A stretch of DNA of 64,000 bases from Anatilimnocola floriformis. GTDB lineage: Bacteria > Planctomycetota > Planctomycetia > Pirellulales > Pirellulaceae. The notes beneath the pieces are model-generated. The model was not told where the DNA came from and ran no database searches. It worked only from the letters and a program-made list of their open reading frames with translations. The number at the start of each line of letters is the position of its first letter. The stretch's first letter is position 1. Below, one piece after another: positions 14,272-23,860 of this stretch. The stretch is taken from NCBI RefSeq assembly GCF_024256385.1, contig NZ_JAMLFW010000002.1, forward strand, positions 1,612,001-1,676,000. Direction: 5' to 3'. A program made the translations under genes and the position numbers.

Positions 14272-14787
14272 CTAGAAATCGACCCACTCAATTGGGACAC
14301 CGACAGTCCGCCTCGCCAGATACCACCGCGCCGAACTCCACTTCCAATCCACCGCTCGCTGCACCAGCTGTGAGCGAGTTGGATTGAGATGCATGTAATC
14401 GAGTATCTCTTCAGCCTTCTCGCGCGACTCGATTTCAAACGGATAGTACTTCGGCTGCCAGAATCGGCGCCCCATTCCGAACTCACGAAAGTAGTTCGCG
14501 GCCTTCGCCGTGTACCAGGTGCGAATCAGCAAACTCGACCGGCGCTTCCACTCGTGCATCACGAAGCTCAGCGATTGCCCGGCTGGAATCCAGAGCAGCG
14601 CATGCACATGATTCGGCATGATCACAAAGCCGATGCACTTCAGACCGGCTTGCAGACGCAATGCTTCCAAGACTCCGAGAATGATCCGCTTGGGTTGATC
14701 AAGATCGAGCAAACGGCGACGACGATAGACGTTGAAGGTAATGAAGAAAACCTTCGGCCGATTGAGGATATCACCGTAATTCCGCAT
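14272..14787 (-). CDS. REP-associated tyrosine transposase (RAYT, Y1/IS200-like)
   Basis: The 171-residue protein starts at the MRNYGDIL methionine. It has the Y1-transposase HUH motif in VIMPNHVHALLW (H60, H62) and the candidate catalytic tyrosine in EEILDYMHLNPTR (Y131), plus the helical W-rich region that follows. RAYTs are single-copy domesticated relatives of IS200/IS605 transposases that are thought to move REP sequences rather than themselves. Inverted REP-like pairs flank the gene on both sides, and the same REP family recurs at 29.9-30.05 kb. All core motifs are intact and the length is normal, so it is probably functional. Confidence 0.9.
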   Translation of the reverse strand: MRNYGDILNRPKVFFITFNVYRRRRLLDLDQPKRIILGVLEALRLQAGLKCIGFVIMPNHVHALLWIPAGQSLSFVMHEWKRRSSLLIRTWYTAKAANYFREFGMGRRFWQPKYYPFEIESREKAEEILDYMHLNPTRSQLVQRAVDWKWSSARWYLARRTVGVPIEWVDF

Positions 14788-14840
14788 CGCGGGATTGTGG
14801 TCGATGCACGCGGACGAATCAAACAAAAAGTGCCGAACCG

Positions 14841-15048: not shown

Positions 15049-15702
15049 TCACTTCGACAAGTTGAGCGTGCCCCACAAACTCGGGTCTTCCGCAAACGGG
15101 AATTCCTGGCCGACGGTGAAGCATTGCGGGCCCAGTTCGCGATCCAGCACGGCGTAGGTGAAGCCGATGGCGGGTTGCTCGGTGGGATTGAAACCCGTCA
15201 GAGTCGCGGCGGGTAGAAACGCTTGCAGTACGTAGCCGTCGTGTTTGCGTTCGCACTTGATCTGCAGTTGCCGCGGATCGATCTCGCGCGGGCTTTCTTT
15301 CGCCCGATTGATGGCGAGGAGCGAGATCAACGGCTCGTCGAGCTTGCGGCCGTTGCCGAGGGGCAACAAGGCCAGCCGATGACAAAAGCGGCCCGCGCGG
15401 TGGATGTTCTGCGTGTTGCGCGTGTCGATCCAGATCTGCACGCCGTCGCTATCGTCAATGCGCGAATCGCGGCACCAGGGCGCTTGCGTCTTTCCCTTGA
15501 TGTGAAAAACAAAGGCCAGGCCGGCTTCGCTCCAGCCGGCGCGGACCTCGGTGTGAATGCGTTTGCCTTCGAGCTCGCCGAAGCAAGGGAGAATGTGCTT
15601 CGGCGTGAGGTTGGCGCCTTTCGCCGACCAGATGTCTTGCGCGTACAAGCAGGGCGCGGCGAAACGGAAAAGGAATGTGGGAGCAACGAGTCGTTCACTC
15701 AC
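15049..15702 (-). CDS. CBM9/DOMON-like domain protein coupled to uvrA
   Basis: The 217-residue product uses a GTG start that overlaps the upstream uvrA stop by four bases (GTGA), so translation is probably coupled. The sequence (GWSEAGLAFVFHIKGKTQAP, DSDGVQIWIDTRNTQNIHR, GYVLQAFLPAATLTGFNP, and IGFTYAVLDRELGPQCF) is of the CBM9-like, sugar-binding or DOMON-type beta-sandwich pattern, including the D.DGVQ.WIDTR motif. No signal peptide is evident. A ligand cannot be predicted. Why such a gene would be coupled to a DNA-repair gene is unclear; the overlap may be accidental operon packing. Confidence 0.75.
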   Translation of the reverse strand: MSERLVAPTFLFRFAAPCLYAQDIWSAKGANLTPKHILPCFGELEGKRIHTEVRAGWSEAGLAFVFHIKGKTQAPWCRDSRIDDSDGVQIWIDTRNTQNIHRAGRFCHRLALLPLGNGRKLDEPLISLLAINRAKESPREIDPRQLQIKCERKHDGYVLQAFLPAATLTGFNPTEQPAIGFTYAVLDRELGPQCFTVGQEFPFAEDPSLWGTLNLSK

Positions 15703-18700
15703 GAGGCAATCTCCTTCAGGCTGCCACCGAGCGAGGCGAGGTGCTGCGTGAGGAATGTTCGCAGCTCCGGCTGATGGACTTGCTCGATGTTCGCAAAATG
15801 CAACTTGATGATGTCCCGCTCCTTGCTCAAATCATCGAACTCCCGCGCGGAGCCCAGATTGGTGATGCCGCCGAGTGCAAACTTCCCCTTCGGGCCGTTC
15901 AGTACGAGCAGCAGCGACTGCGGCCGCTTGGTGTAGATGGTGGCCCATGGTTCGCGCTGCTGCGGCACGAGGATTCGCACCAGCTGTTGGTTGCTCCAGA
16001 GGAACTCCGCGTCGGGCGCGATTTCCTTGAGCAGTTCGCACAGCTCTTCCAGCGTCTCCGCTTTCCATTCGACCGTGCGACCTGGCGGAAAACCTTTCCG
16101 CAGCAAGTGCCACTTTTGGCCGAGGATTTTCCACGGCGAAACGTCTTCGGGAGCGACCGTCGCTTTCTCGGTGTACTTGAAGAAGCCCGCGACCGCGTCG
16201 TTGACAAACTGCCAGAACTCCGGCGTGTCGACTTCTTCGAACGTGTGGACGCGAATCTCGATTTCCTGCCACGGCCCTTGCAGCGTCTTCACTTTCACCC
16301 GCGGCTCGTTGCCATAAATGGGCAGATCGGAGAGCTCGTTGAGGGTCTTCAGTTGAATCCGCTCCTGCAGTGCTTCTCGCTTAAACGTTCCCTTGTAAAC
16401 GCGGAACTTGAGCTTCAGCAGCCAGGTCTCGCCGGTAATCGCGTGGAAGAACCAGCCGTCGCTCTTCTTGGCGGCGGCGATCTCGACGACACTGCGCTCG
16501 CTCCAGTCCGTCTCGCTGAACTCGCCGAGCTCGTGAATCTTGTCGACGACTTCGGCCAAGATGCGGCCGTCCCATTTGCAGGGTTCGCCGGTGCGGCCAA
16601 CGCGGCTTTCGGTGTGCCACTTGCGGCCGTCGACTTCCCACGGCATCTTCACCGTCTTGCCGACTTCGGTGATGTCGAGATCGCCTTGCTTCTCTTGATC
16701 GAGTTGCTGCGGATCGTACTTCTGCCGATCGGCAAAGGGGCCCGCGAGCAAGACCGGCGCGAGGGCGGCGGCCGTGTGCGAGTAGAGTCCGCTGTCGTTC
16801 GCATCGATGACGGCAGGCGACGGCGCGGGCGTTTTCTTTTTCGCCGTTTTCTTGCCGGTCGCTTGCGAACCGCCAGTCATCGCCAAGTGCCGCGCGACGA
16901 CCTCGTCGGGCGTGCCGCTGCAGACCACCTGGCCGCCGCCTTCGCCGGCGTCGGGGCCCATGTCGATCATCCAGTCACAGCTCTTGATGATGTCGAGATT
17001 GTGCTCGATCAGCACGACCGTGTTACCCAGATCGACGAGCCGCTGCAGCACTTCGAGCAGCTTGGCGAGATCGTCGAAGTGGAGACCGGTCGTCGGTTCA
17101 TCGAGCAGATAGAGCGTGCGGCCGGTGTCGGGCCGCGAGAGCTCGGCAGCGAGTTTCACGCGCTGAGCTTCACCGCCCGAGAGGGTCGGCGCTGGCTGAC
17201 CGAGCGTGAGGTAATCGAGACCCACGTCGCAGAGCGTTTGCATGATGCGGCGGATCTTCGGAATGTTCTCGAAGAGCTTGAGGGCGTCGCCGCAAGTCAT
17301 GTCGAGCACATCGCTGATCGAATGGCCATGGAACATGACCGCCAGTGTCTCAGGGTTGTAACGCTTGCCGCGGCAGACATCGCACTCGACCCACACGTCG
17401 GGCAGGAAGTGCATTTCGATCCGCTTTTGGCCGTTTCCTTCGCAGGCTTCGCAGCGACCGCCGGGAACATTGAAGCTGAACCGCCGGCCTGAATAGCCGC
17501 GGACCTTGGCTTCGGGGAGTTGCGAAAACAGCGTGCGGATCAGCTCGAAGCAACCGGTGTACGTCGCGGGGTTCGACGTCGGCGAATTGCCCAGCGGCTG
17601 TTGATCGACGCGGATGATCTTGTTGACGTGCTCGAGGCCGGTGATCTTGTCGTGCTGGCCGGGAATGATGGCAGCGCGATGGAGCAACCGGGCCGCGGCA
17701 GCGTAGAGCACGTCTTCGATGAGCGTACTTTTGCCACTGCCGCTGGGGCCGGTGATGGCCGTCAGCGTGCCGAGCGGAATCTTTACGTTGACGTTGCGGA
17801 GATTGTTGTGCCGCGCGCCCAGAACTTCGATGTACGCCGTCGGTGCTGCGACTTCAGGCTTCGGCTTGTCGGCTTCGCTGGTTGTCTTCGGCGCTGCCTT
17901 CTTCTTTTTCTTCGGCGCGGTCGCATCCCAATCTTCCAGCGGATCGGCGAGCGTCGCTGCCGTTAGCGGCTGACCCGTGCGGCGCGTGATCGGCACGGCC
18001 AGCGCCTTGCGGCCGCTGAGATAAGGACCGGTAACCGAACGCGGCTGCGAATCGAGCTCCGTGGGATGAGCGTTCGCGACAATCTCACCGCCGAGTCGTC
18101 CTGCCCGTGGGCCGAAGTCGAGAAGGTGATCGCAATGCTCGATCACTTCGCGGTCGTGTTCGACCACGATCAGCGTGTTGCCGAGATCGCGGAGCTTGTG
18201 GAGCGCGCCGAGGAGCCGAGTGTTGTCGCGCGGGTGCAAACCGATGGTCGGTTCGTCGAGCACATACAGCACGCCGCACAGGCCGCTGCCGAGCTGACTG
18301 GCCAGGCGGATGCGCTGGGCTTCGCCGTTCGAGAGTGTTGCCGCGGGACGCGAGAGAGACAGATAGTCGAGACCGACATCGAGGAGGAACTGCAACCGCC
18401 CCATGATTTCGCGGAGCAATTCGCCGGCGATCTTTCGTTCGCGCTCGCTGAGGTTCCACTCGTTGATCGTCTTCTGCAATTGTCCCAGCGGCATGCGGCC
18501 GATGTCACCGATCGTCTGATTGCGAAAGCGGACGGCGGAGGCGTCGTCGCGCAAGCGGCTGCCACCGCAGGTCGAGCACTCGACATCGGCAACGAGTTGC
18601 TCGAGGCGAATGCGGAGGAGCGGCGACAGTTTCGATGCTTCTTCGAGGGCTGGATACAAACCCTTGAATTGAAAGCGGAACAGCGGCTTGGCTTTTTTCG

Positions 18701-21700
18701 CCGTCGAACCAGGCGGGAGCACATCGAACCATTGCTCTTCCGCGCCGTAGAGAATCGTCCGCCGCTGTTTGTGCGGTAACTGATCGAAGGGCACATCCAG
18801 CGGCACGCCGGTGCCGGCGCTCAGCGCTTCGAGCATCGCGGTGGCATGCGGCTTGGTGAGATCGGGCCAGAGGGCGAGTGCGCCTTGAGCCAGCGTGAGC
18901 TTGGGATCGGAGAGGAGCGCGGCGGGATTGGCGCCAGTTTGCACGCCGAGGCCTTCGCACGATGGGCACCAACCGAGCGGGCTGTTGAACGAAAAGCTGT
19001 GCGGCGTGAGAGGCTCGAAGCTGCGATTGCACTCGCGGCAGGCGAGATGCTGGCTGTGCGGCACGACCTTCCATTTGTTCTCGGGCACGTCGTCTTGAGC
19101 GTAGGCCACATGCATCACACCCTTGCCGAGGGCGAGGGCTTGTTCGACGCTGCCGGCGATGCGCGAGCGGGCTTCTTCCTTGACGATCACGCGGTCGAGA
19201 ACAACTTCCACCTTGTGCTTGCGACGGCGATCGATTTCGGGCACGGCACCGAGTTCGTGCGACACACCGTTCACGCGGACGCGGTTGTAACCCTTCGCGC
19301 GGAGGCTTTCCCATAATGTGGCATACTGCTGGCCGACCTCGATCTCCATCGGCGCCATTAGGAACAGCTTGGCTCCGGGCGTTTCGGCCAGGATCGTATC
19401 GACGACCTGATCGGCCGATTGCGTGCCGACGGGAATATCGCAATCGGGGCAATACAGCTGACCGAGACGGGCGATCATGATCCGCAGGTAATCGTAAATC
19501 TCCGTCACCGTGCCGACGGTCGAGCGCGGTGTGTGGCCGAGGTTCTTCTGCTCGATGGCGATGGCTGGCGACAAGCCGTCGATGTGATCGACGATCGGCT
19601 TTTGCATTTGGGCAACGAACTGCCGGGCGTAGCTCGACAGGCTCTCGACATATCGCCGTTGGCCTTCGGCGTAGATGGTGTCCATCGCGAGCGAGCTTTT
19701 GCCGCTGCCGCTGGGACCGCAGAAGACCGTCATCTTGTCGCGCTCGATTCGCGCGCTGACGTCCTTCAAGTTGTGCTGCTTCGCACCGCGAACGACGATG
19801 TGCGTCGCCAGTTCCGGCGGGCCTTGCGTGACGACTTCGGGTTTGTCGTTTTTGGGTTTCTTCTTCCCGTTTTTCTTTTCTTCGACGGGTGTGAGCGCAG
19901 CGTAGGCCTTTTCGCGAGCCTCTTTCGCGGCGGAGCCGTCGAGGATCTTCTTCAGCGCGCGGCCCGTGTAGGACTCTTCGCACTTCACGATGTCTTCGGG
20001 CGTGCCGGCCGCGAGCAACCGGCCACCGGCAGCGCCACCTTCGGGGCCCATGTCGATGATCCAGTCCGCCGTTTTGATCACATCGAGATTGTGCTCGACG
20101 ACGAGGACGGTGTTGCCGGCTTCGACGAAGTTGTGCAGCACCTTCAAGAGCAACTGAATGTCGGCGAAGTGGAGGCCGGTCGTCGGTTCGTCGAGCAAGT
20201 ACAACGTCTTGCCGGTGCTCTTCTTCACCAGTTCGCGGGCCAGCTTGATGCGTTGGGCTTCGCCACCGCTGAGGGTCGGCGACGGCTGACCGAGCTTGAT
20301 GTAGTCGAGGCCGACGTCGTGCAGTGTTTGCAGCCGATGATGAATGTTCGGCACATTGGCGAAGACATCGAGCAACTGCTGCACGTCCATGTCGAGCACA
20401 TCGGCGATCGACTTGTCCTTGAAGCGGACCTGCAATGTTTCACGGCTGAAGCGTTTTCCTTCGCAGACGGGGCACATGACCCACACGTCGGCGAGGAAGT
20501 CCATTTCGAGCTTCGTGCTGCCGTTCCCTTCGCAGGCTTCGCAGCGGCCCCCTTCGACATTGAAGCTGAAGCGGCCCGGCTTGAAGCCGCGGCGTTTGGC
20601 TTCGGGCAACTGCGTGAAGAGATCGCGGATTTCGTCGAACAGTTTGATGTACGTACCGGGATTGCTCCGCGGCGTGCGGCCGATGGGCGTTTGATCGATG
20701 GCGATGAGCTTGTCGAGATGCTCCATCCCTTCGATGGCGCGATGCTTGCCGGGGTTGCCTTCGCCCTTGTTCAGGTCGCGATGGAGCGTCTCGACCAGAA
20801 TGTCGCTGACGAGTGAGCTCTTGCCGCTGCCGGAAACGCCGGTGACGCACACGAACGCGCCGAGCGGAATATCGACGTCGACGTTTTTCAGATTGTTCTG
20901 TTCGGCGCCGAGGATTCGCAAAAAGTTGCCGGTGAGCGGCCGGCGAGTCTTCGGCACGGCGATTTCGCGTTCGCCCGACAGAAACTGCCCCGTGACACTC
21001 CGCTCCGTCCGCAGCACTTCGCCGGGTTTGCCTTGGGCAACAAGTTCACCGCCGCGCACGCCGGGGCCTGGACCGAAATCGAGAATCTGATCGGCGGCCC
21101 AGATGGTGTCCTCGTCGTGCTCGACGACGATCACGGTGTTGCCCATGTCGCGCAAACGGCGGAGCGTGGCGAGCAAGCGATCGTTGTCGCGCGGATGGAG
21201 ACCGATCGACGGTTCGTCGAGAATGTAGAGCACGCCGACGAGGCCGCTGCCGATCTGGCCGGCGAGGCGGATCCGCTGCGATTCACCGCCGGAAAGGGTC
21301 GGGGCCGTGCGATCGAGCGACAAATAATCGAGGCCGACGTCGATCAAGAAGCCGAGCCGGGTGCGGATTTCCTTGAGCACTTCGGCAGCGATGATCTGCT
21401 GAGTGTCGGTCAGTTGCAGCCCGGCGAAAAACGCCGAAGCGTCGCTGACCGCGAGATTGCAGATCTGCGGCAGTGTACGGACGGGATTTTCTTCAAAACC
21501 CGGCGCCGACGTCGTGATGCGCACCGCGCGAGCTTGCGGCACGAGTCGCTCGCCATGGCAGGTCGGGCAGCCGACCATGCTCATGTATTTTTCGAGCTGC
21601 TTGAGCTGCATCTTGCTTTTGCTGGTTTTGTGCTTGCCGGCAAATTCGGGAATGATCCCTTCGAATTTGCCGCCGTACATCATCGGCGCTTGCCCACCCC

Positions 21701-22919
21701 GCCAAGTGAACGTGATGTGCTCTTTGTCGGTGCCATACAGCCAGACGCGCTGTTGCTCGACGGTCAACTTGTTCCAGGGCGATTCCAGCAGCGTGCCGTC
21801 TTCCCACTTGTGCTTGCGCTCGAGCGTATCGGCCACGCCTTGATAAATGTGCCGCCGCCAACGACCCAGCTCGTGCCAGGGCCCGATGAGTTCGATAGCT
21901 CCTTCTTTGAACGACAATTTCGGATTCGGAATGAGTAACTCGGGCGACAGCGAATACATCACGCCGAGGCCGTCGCAATCGGCGCACATCCCTTGCGGGC
22001 TATTGAAGCTGAAGAGCTGCGGGCTCGGCGGTTCGAACGACAAGCCGCACGTCGTGCAGGCGTAGTCGGACGAAAACAGCATATCGCCGGCGCGAGCCGC
22101 GCGGCGCTTCTGCTTCGCGCCCTTGGCAGTTACTTCTTCCTCGGCTGCTTCAGCTTCTTCGTTCTCCGGAACGGGCACTGATTTCTTCGCTGCCGCTTCG
22201 TCATCGAGCGCGACAATTAGATTGCCGCCGCCCATTTTCAGCGCGGTTTCGACGGCTTCGCTCAAGCGCGGGCGAATATCGGGGCGCAGAACCAGCCGAT
22301 CGACAACCACTTCGATATCGTGCCGCATCTGCCGATCGAGCGATTGGCTGGCGTTCAGCTGCACGACGGTGCCGTCGACACGAGCGCGCACGAAGCCCTG
22401 CTTCAGCAAGTCTTCGAACAGATCTTTGTATTCACCCTTCTGCTGCCGAATCAGCGGCGCGAGGATGTTCAGCTTGCTCCCCTCGGGCAGCTGCTGAATG
22501 CGGGCGAGGATTTCTTCGCGCGATTGCGCGGTGATCGGCTGGCCGCACTTCGGGCAGTGTCCCTGGCCGACGCGGGCGTAGAGGACGCGCAGGTAGTCGT
22601 AGATTTCGGTGATCGTGCCGACGGTCGAGCGCGGATTGTTGCCGCTGGACTTTTGGCTGATGCTGATCGACGGGCTCAAGCCGCCGATGTAATCGACGTC
22701 GGGCTTGGGCATTTGACCCAAGAAATGCCGGGCGTAGCTCGACAGGCTTTCGACATAGCGACGCTGCCCTTCGGCATACAGCGTGTCAAAGGCCAGGCTG
22801 CTTTTGCCGCTGCCCGAGACGCCGGTGAGACAGATGAGTTGATTGCGAGGAAGGACGAGCGACACATCGCGCAGGTTATGCTCGCGAGCCCCTTTGATGA
22901 CGATGTCCGATGCTGGCAT
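15699..22919 (-). CDS. uvrA: Tandem double UvrA fusion protein (excinuclease subunit A-like)
   Basis: One uninterrupted 2406-codon ORF encodes two complete UvrA units, each about as long as a normal UvrA (about 940 residues), and a 380-residue C-terminal extension. Unit 1 (about 1-1010) has Walker [10 protein letters not shown] near 33 and 692 and signatures LSGGESQR and LSGGEAQR. Unit 2 (about 1035-2020) has GPSGSGKSS near 1068 and GPSGSGKST near 1721, with signatures LSNGEAQR and LSGGEAQR. All four Walker B/D-loops ([12 protein letters not shown]-like, [10 protein letters not shown]) and the CxxC zinc pairs, including CEACEGNG in both units, are present. UvrA normally dimerises to find bulky DNA lesions and load UvrB; this looks like a covalent dimer. 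Lysine-rich linkers join the units. A -10-like TACAAT lies upstream at 22965-22970 (minus strand). Confidence 0.93.
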
Positions 22920-23221
22920 GAGCCCCTGTATTCCTGTTCAGATTCCTCCGTGCCGAATCCTGTCATTGTAGGAGTTTAGGGGCCCGAGCGGACAGGGGGA
23001 GAATTACGAATCGGCGGGTCTCCTCACTGGGTTCAGGGATGTGATGAGTTCACGTCCGCCCGCTGCGCGACACCTCCCTTTCCCTCTTTCCCGCCGCTTG
23101 ACGCACTGAGTAGAATGGAATGTGTTCAGTGCCCCTTGTTCTACATCGACGAGCCGGGTTCCTCGACAGGCTGGGTTCCTTGAGAGGATCATGCCCTCGC
23201 CGATTTGCGGAGGGATTCTGC
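22920..23221. other. Divergent intergenic region between uvrA and the HNH gene
   Basis: About 300 bases without a gene. It should hold divergent promoters. A TACAAT element reads toward uvrA at 22965-22970, without a good -35. A GGAGGG ribosome-binding site lies just before the GTG start of the HNH gene. No operator palindrome was recognised. Confidence 0.5.
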
Positions 23222-23860
23222 GTGATCGAAGCGGACTCAGACCGAATCTTGAGTTCTAGCGTCTTGGTGCTGAATCGTTTCTATTCCCCCGTGCATGTTG
23301 TCTCTGTTCGCCGGGCCTTCATTCTCCTCTATCGAGAATGTGCCGAGATCATCCATCTCGAGGATGGCCAGTTTTGCAATTACGACTTCTCGGGCTGGTG
23401 CGAAATGAGCGCCTTTCGCTCGTCCGACAAGCAGCCTCATGAAGATTGGATTCAGAGCGTGCGCTTCGAAGTGCAAGTGCCGCGCGTCGTCCGGCTGCTC
23501 GAATACGATCGGCCGCAACGGAGTACCCTCCGCTTCAATCGCCGCAACCTCTTTGCCCGCGACGGCCATCGCTGCCAATACTGCGGCCGGTCCTTCCCGT
23601 CGCATCAGCTCAGCCTCGATCACGTCATGCCTCGTAGCCGCGGCGGCGAGACGAGCTGGCAAAACGTCGTCTGCTCGTGCGTCGGTTGTAATACCAAAAA
23701 GGGAAGCAAGACGCCGCAAGAAGCGAATATGCTGCTGAAGACCCCGCCGGCCGAGCCCAAAGCCAATCCGCTGCTGTTGCAGAAATTGACGAATCCGAAA
23801 TATGCGTCCTGGCGGACATTCTTGCCGCATTTGGTTTCGCATTTGAGTGAAGCGAATTAG
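23222..23860 (+). CDS. HNH endonuclease family protein
   Basis: The 212-residue protein is started at GTG (VIEADSDRIL), preceded by GGAGGGATTCTGC; the upstream extension is arginine-rich and unlikely. The C-terminal half has the HNH nuclease core: CQYC (C118, C121), SLDHVMPRSRGG (D133-H134), WQNVV (N148) and CVGC (C153, C156), typical of the standalone HNH proteins widespread in planctomycetes, cyanobacteria and actinobacteria. The N-terminal part (VLNRFYSPVHVVSVRRAFIL) is the usual conserved lead-in of this subfamily. It should be a metal-dependent DNA nuclease; the biological role is unknown. Confidence 0.92.
   Translation: MIEADSDRILSSSVLVLNRFYSPVHVVSVRRAFILLYRECAEIIHLEDGQFCNYDFSGWCEMSAFRSSDKQPHEDWIQSVRFEVQVPRVVRLLEYDRPQRSTLRFNRRNLFARDGHRCQYCGRSFPSHQLSLDHVMPRSRGGETSWQNVVCSCVGCNTKKGSKTPQEANMLLKTPPAEPKANPLLLQKLTNPKYASWRTFLPHLVSHLSEAN

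Follow-up and report, generated by a model that had tools for sequence, protein, structure and literature searches.

We have found a double-length uvrA gene in Anatilimnocola floriformis whose product probably initiates nucleotide excision repair as a single-chain UvrA dimer with specialised halves. The gene lies at 15699-22919 on the minus strand of the window, by which we mean the whole 64,000-nucleotide stretch of contig NZ_JAMLFW010000002.1 that was analysed (positions 1,612,001 to 1,676,000). An uninterrupted frame with an ATG start encodes 2406 amino acids (aa) there, comprising two UvrA units in tandem and a C-terminal extension. In the mechanism that sequence comparison suggests, the two short-linked units would form a four-ATPase damage sensor within one chain, which would scan DNA and then pass lesions to UvrB. 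In unit 1 the UvrB-binding surface would have stayed canonical and signature domain II would have retained its conserved arginines, the zinc-3 hairpin being altered; unit 2 would have kept the canonical hairpin and lost the Lys-Gly pair of the UvrB-binding domain together with two arginines (Arg695/Arg698; E. coli numbering). A pair of C-terminal repeats would supply extra binding surface, most likely for DNA. UvrA is normally a pair of identical subunits in other bacteria, and mutation of a single subunit is difficult in a homodimer. A natural single-chain UvrA would let the ATP sites, zinc hairpins and UvrB docks be mutated one at a time, and would thus offer a natural route to ask what each half of the damage sensor does.

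A first-pass annotation of the window, made from its letters alone, had described one open reading frame with two complete UvrA units, four nucleotide-binding sites and two CEACEGNG modules, all of which our analysis bears out. Unit 1 (aa 6-977 by hmmscan; 19989-22904) matches TIGR00630 with 1323.8 bits and an E value of 0. Unit 2 (aa 1041-2007; 16899-19799), whose match is reported as two pieces (E 7e-209 and 1e-156), scores 1221.9 bits counting in-frame neighbours, and its last helix probably reaches aa ~2057. With such scores and E values, chance is no concern for either unit. Both units contain two ATP-binding cassette (ABC) ATPase modules, and every module has a signature and an H-loop besides its Walker A and Walker B motifs. 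The four Walker A sequences span aa 33-45, 694-706, 1068-1080 and 1724-1736, and no ATP site lacks its catalytic residues; one of the four signatures, the first of unit 2 (LSNGE, aa 1529), is non-canonical. CEACEGNG occurs at aa 793 in unit 1 and aa 1823 in unit 2, and the cysteines of the three zinc modules per unit are intact in both. The UvrB-binding (UvrA_inter) domain, PF17760, was found once per unit, at 22203-22526 in unit 1 (133.4 bits) and at 19098-19421 in unit 2 (109.8 bits), where G1196 and Q1197 replace the conserved Lys-Gly. Zinc module 3 with its hairpin occupies 20457-20543 in unit 1, where hairpin residues D807 and A810 are derived, and 17367-17453 in unit 2, which has the canonical H1837 and P1840. 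The DNA-binding insertion domain PF17755 also matches two stretches, with a whole-protein score of 114.6 against a cut-off of 23.2. Over 914 columns the two units share 50% identity with one another; identity to E. coli UvrA is 54% for unit 1 and 50% for unit 2.

Of the two lysine-rich linkers claimed by the annotation, the inter-unit one stands: its lysine-rich core (aa 1015-1026; 19842-19877) lies within a full linker of about aa 978-1040. The other stretch (aa 2022-2031; 16827-16856) is close to the end of unit 2 and therefore joins no units. Beyond that account, we note the minus strand, the C-terminal repeats (~345 residues) and an insert, rich in lysine, that separates the two ATPase halves of unit 2 (aa 1668-1678; 17886-17918); every part of the gene given here is on the minus strand. 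An assembly or frameshift artefact was ruled out because intact tandem frames recur in 30 of the 39 genomes sampled from the class of A. floriformis, several of them single-contig.

Two types of tandem UvrA were distinguished. Type I, which includes the window protein, comprises the tandems of the class and of two genomes of a further family (f50), and type II those of other planctomycete lineages. Type I mostly bears the C-terminal extension, and type II (1805-2216 aa) is without it. Linker lengths, which are rough since they were taken between profile match ends, have a median of 19 residues (range 2-80) in 73 tandems of type I and of 10 residues (range 3-19) in 38 of type II. Aligning the units and placing them in a tree with planctomycete UvrAs, as the annotation had suggested, resolved them into separate clades with reciprocal fixed changes. 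A FastTree phylogeny was built from 203 of 284 extracted units, omitting partial units, three short paralogues from the A. floriformis genome and most loci of the genome_contigs set; type I unit 1 (47 rows) formed a clade with support of 0.999, as did type I unit 2 (45 rows) with support of 1.0. With IQ-TREE on 81 rows, each of the four unit groups (two types by two units) was a clade at 100. The two type II units were sisters at 97, and the type I pair was joined at a support of only 54. Topology constraints uniting the unit 1s of both types (p-AU 0.301), the unit 2s (0.373) or all tandem units (0.451) were tolerated. The trees are compatible with one or with two origins of the tandem, and types I and II may or may not share a duplication.

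The residues that separate the two units were counted in those tandems (42 of type I, 35 of type II) that are nearly complete in both units, and compared with 33 singles; four divergent singles (L003, L111, L112 and L114) and one tandem (L123) were omitted. At 12 positions, unit 1 and unit 2 are each fixed for a residue of their own across the 42 type I tandems. Three of them fall within the 19-residue zinc-3 hairpin (744-762), for which the probability by chance, calculated post hoc, is 0.0014. At positions 706, 751, 754 and 757, type I unit 1 has K, L, D and A, and unit 2 has G, I, H and P. K159 is retained in a fraction of 0.98 of type I unit 1 versus 0.0 of unit 2, G160 in 1.0 versus 0.02, and R698 in 1.0 versus 0.05. 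In both types, unit 1 keeps these three residues, which are near-invariant in the singles, and unit 2 has lost them; type I unit 2 has also lost R695. Three columns were lost in the unit 2s alone of both tandem types, one in the unit 1s alone and none crosswise; four additional columns were lost in three of the four unit groups. Counted by majority residue, columns that differ in parallel outnumber crosswise ones by 8 to 1 at a threshold of 0.5 and by 4 to 0 at 0.6. Two published accounts place damage-specific contacts in the zinc-3 hairpin (PMC7835731) and residues critical for DNA and UvrB in signature domain II (PMC6486640).

The Walker A lysine, the Walker B Asp-Glu and the H-loop histidine are invariant in all unit groups, none of the tandem units scored lacking them (type I, 47 rows of unit 1 and 45 of unit 2; type II, 37 and 35). 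The signatures are slightly variable: alanine takes the place of the first-signature serine in 12 of the 37 rows of type II unit 1, and the second glycine of that signature's glycine pair persists in 36 of the 45 rows of type I unit 2. Zinc cysteines are retained in both type I units in all but one cell counted; in type II, C256 is retained by just 30 of the 37 rows of unit 1 and 22 of the 35 of unit 2. The UvrB-binding domain distinguishes the type II units further. In the main tandem of 37 genomes it scores 84.1-125.4 bits in unit 1, and in unit 2 it scores 24.6-62.4 bits in 35 genomes and was not found in two, so that it is low-scoring or missing in all 37.

The A. floriformis genome (8.93 Mb in 17 contigs, 99.5% complete) contains, beside the tandem, five further UvrA-like frames of at least 292 aa. 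One encodes a 987-aa UvrA with a UvrB-binding domain of 120.5 bits that retains K159, G160, R695 and R698. The annotation had left it unsettled whether the double protein replaces the ordinary UvrA of the cell; the search for a uvrA of normal size that it advised returned this gene, and the two coexist. The other frames are a divergent 948-aa UvrA (UvrB-binding domain, 52.3 bits), two short UvrA2-like ones of 871 and 856 aa (L182 and L183) that lack the stretch where the UvrB-binding domain belongs (model positions ~116-260), and a solitary UvrA second half of 292 aa (L181:2716-3591; profile positions 683-947). UvrB is present in a single copy.

In the class sample, the tandem is intact in the 30 genomes already mentioned (2116-2616 aa), split in eight and absent from one (G152). 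A tandem frame was seen in at least 43 of 149 genomes of a phylum sample, two units being confirmed in the loci retrieved. Fourteen of the 39 class genomes (95-100% complete) yielded no UvrB-binding domain outside the tandem and its pieces. The domain was confined to one tandem in 29 of the 37 type II genomes, which are drafts of 59-97% completeness and represent all genomes in which that type was seen; A. floriformis and the two f50 genomes were scored alongside. In those 14 and 29 genomes the tandem is therefore the sole candidate seen for serving UvrB. Five of the remaining eight type II genomes (G003, G025, G058, G133 and G148) contain another long frame, probably a second tandem UvrA, whose two UvrB-binding domains are weak (30.9-74.2 bits); the frame of G058 (L123) alone was retrieved.

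In the eight class genomes with a split form (G024, G137, G178, G087, G105, G151, G155 and G159; loci L085-L099, L115, L177 and L178), the tandem is spread over two or three genes, and in five of them the cut falls within zinc module 1. G024, G137 and G178 have two genes. Piece A consists of unit 1 and of unit 2 up to profile position 267, stopping just past the first CxxC of zinc module 1 (in G024, SCPKCDAH and then the stop codon), and piece B starts with MSRTFEEL or MARTFEEL and has the second CxxC, the remainder of unit 2 and the extension. G087 and G105 have three genes, since a further break separates the ATPase halves near position 618. In G151, G155 and G159 the break near 618 lies in unit 1, and one gene runs from the second half of that unit through unit 2 to the extension. 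The genes break within units and never at the unit junction, and pieces sharing a contig are 12 kb to megabases apart. Judged by profile positions, the cuts have cost the protein no stretch, a sign that its pieces may come together in trans; should this be true where zinc module 1 is cut between genes, its zinc ion would sit between cysteines of two polypeptides. Assembly error is an unlikely source of the splits because identical breaks recur, in three and two species of two genera in one family and in three genera of another, including the single-contig genomes G024, G105 and G151. An intein was also ruled out, since the frame of piece A ends directly after the CxxC with a few extra residues at most. 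The split forms indicate which joints of UvrA appear to tolerate breaks.

Several of these observations weigh against a single-chain dimer with specialised halves. The sequence is compatible with pairing of units within a chain or between chains, and covalent linkage is not strictly required, because eight class genomes split the protein. Unit 2 of the window protein may also bind UvrB, since its domain for this scores well (109.8 bits) and R176, D205, R206 and R216 are kept there. Conservation of the two type I units is alike at domain level. The full-size 987-aa UvrA of A. floriformis, with its strong UvrB-binding domain, could carry ordinary repair, and for the type II genomes a status as only UvrA is provisional because several drafts are incomplete. 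The annotation had proposed a covalent dimer whose units could have specialised. The separate clades, the reciprocal fixed differences and the retained ATP-site residues fit that proposal; pairing within the chain, like the division of labour itself and the role of the extension, is what we infer from sequence. It is unlikely, in our view, that the linker is a mere tether and that units pair between chains in a higher assembly, for example of two chains and four units. The shortness of the linkers in both types can be cited for such an assembly, and nothing speaks directly against it; the split relatives suggest that pieces find each other, which is compatible with either picture. We give equally little credence to a gene duplicated without division of labour, in which both units act as an ordinary homodimer and their differences reflect drift. 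Drift would be in keeping with the catalytic residues and nearly all zinc cysteines kept by both type I units, with the similar overall conservation and with the UvrB-binding domain still scoring well in unit 2, but not with differences fixed class-wide at the otherwise near-invariant K159, G160 and R698. Nor does it sit well with losses that fall on the same unit in both types and never crosswise, with the excess of parallel over crosswise majority columns at both thresholds, or with the weak or missing UvrB-binding domain in unit 2 of every type II genome.

The tandem might instead be a side-line paralogue, related for example to drugs or recombination, with nucleotide excision repair performed by the 987-aa UvrA. 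The five further UvrA-like frames of the genome lend this some colour, as do the strong UvrB-binding domain and the four conserved residues of the full-size single. We consider it slightly more doubtful than the two preceding alternatives, since the tandem, intact or split, is present in 38 of the 39 class genomes and it or its pieces are the sole UvrA found with a UvrB-binding domain in 14 of them. Post-translational cleavage into two ordinary UvrA monomers is the least credible alternative and very improbable. A lysine-rich inter-unit linker and the splits seen in relatives are what it can draw on, but the linker varies widely in length in both types, unlike a conserved protease site, and the split genes break inside units rather than at the junction.

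A wider and more tentative reading also suggests itself. Planctomycete UvrA may be asymmetric, with one subunit docking UvrB and the other reading damage. The second dock might then have decayed in one lineage, giving a one-UvrB machine (UvrA2B1), and a duplicated domain might have been added in the lineage of the window; some relatives would later have divided the chain among two or three genes, with one of the breaks falling within zinc module 1. The working complex has been variously estimated as UvrA2B2 or UvrA2B1 (PMC7835731). The two tandem types would represent natural forms with two versus one well-conserved UvrB-binding domain.

The ~345 residues that follow unit 2 (aa ~2060-2406) are not UvrA. 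They consist of two homologous repeats, repeat 1 at 16149-16661 and repeat 2 at 15702-16151 (profile-profile hhalign E value 9.1e-21), for which AlphaFold gave a mean predicted local distance difference test (pLDDT) score of 92.6 over the whole extension and 93.1 over repeat 2. Against Pfam and NCBIfam, no family scored above cut-off, one sub-threshold DUF5937 row being obtained at E 0.03. Foldseek searches with the extension and with one repeat returned nothing at E <= 0.001 in the PDB or a viral library. The first PDB row was a glutamate dehydrogenase for the whole extension (E 2.3e-3; template modelling (TM) score 0.15) and a secretion chaperone for one repeat (E 0.032), and type III secretion chaperones and the DNA-binding domain of T4 MotA recur as weak matches to the small alpha/beta fold. 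The C-terminal double-wing domain of T4 MotA is the most probable DNA-binding fold match (Foldseek probability 0.97 for the whole, 0.92 for one repeat), and a T4-like MotA protein tops the viral-library matches at E 4e-3. This likeness is weak (PDB E 0.03-0.05; TM score 0.41 by query length for one repeat), secretion chaperones score alike, and no MotA family or chain was among the Pfam, NCBIfam, PHROGs and PDB-sequence matches of the extension. HTH_32 was matched in 18 of 84 extension members (best E 9.1e-6), the window's own member not among them. Taken with the company it keeps, the weak fold likeness suggests DNA binding as the most likely role of the extension.

Among 47 genome_contigs loci, the extension is in frame with UvrA in 42, cut by a contig end in four and in another frame in one. 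In that last locus (L054:2843-9948) the extension occupies a different, overlapping frame from the tandem, which could be a frameshift in a metagenome-assembled genome or a real split. The extension was detected in 28 of the 29 intact class tandems retrieved beyond the window, L083 having none. Partial matches consisted of the first repeat alone in eight members of one family (f78) and of the second alone in L064 and L082. When candidate places, at most 10 per genome, were scored in 199 phylum genomes, the extension was found in 14, in one place each and always in a tandem frame or split piece; no free-standing family was found among the 199. A peptide-pattern scan for it returned planctomycete records only.

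Each unit of the window protein resembles E. coli UvrA (940 aa; TIGR00630 / NF001503) in being complete and in sharing its zinc cysteines and catalytic ATP-site residues; the window protein differs in having two units per chain, unit-specific fixed changes and C-terminal repeats. The NCBIfam model NF001885 (PRK00635), which we take to describe a chlamydial double UvrA, is also double-length; at 1809 positions it has no room for the extension. The window protein scores 1354.7 bits against it, below the curated cut-off of 3054, and the model aligns over the unit junction in all three type II tandems scanned. In the planctomycete Tuwongella immobilis, two uvrA genes are fused into one of twice the E. 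coli length, and UvrA, B, C and D were all detected in one protein fraction (PMC8567305). This is a protein of the same kind as that of the window, a two-uvrA fusion of double E. coli length in both cases. The double planctomycete UvrA is already known from this published fusion, and NF001885 models a UvrA of double length; the novelty that the annotation had implied falls away. The available portion of the Tuwongella account covers length, fractionation and phylogeny, with no mention there of unit specialisation, C-terminal repeats, two types or split forms. We found the extension, the unit asymmetry, type II and the split genes described nowhere in the literature searched, which omits most subscription journals, and this negative is weak evidence for that reason.

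Directly downstream of the tandem is a 217-aa frame without a Pfam family (15049-15702, minus strand), which overlaps the end of uvrA by four bases. A homologue of it lies 0-486 nt downstream in 21 of the 44 genome_contigs loci having at least 700 nt there, and was found in the available sequence of 2 of 37 other loci. A protein with an IS200-like transposase domain (Y1_Tnp) is encoded close to the end of uvrA (14272-14826, minus strand), and a protein with an HNH endonuclease domain is encoded divergently from uvrA (23120-23860, plus strand).

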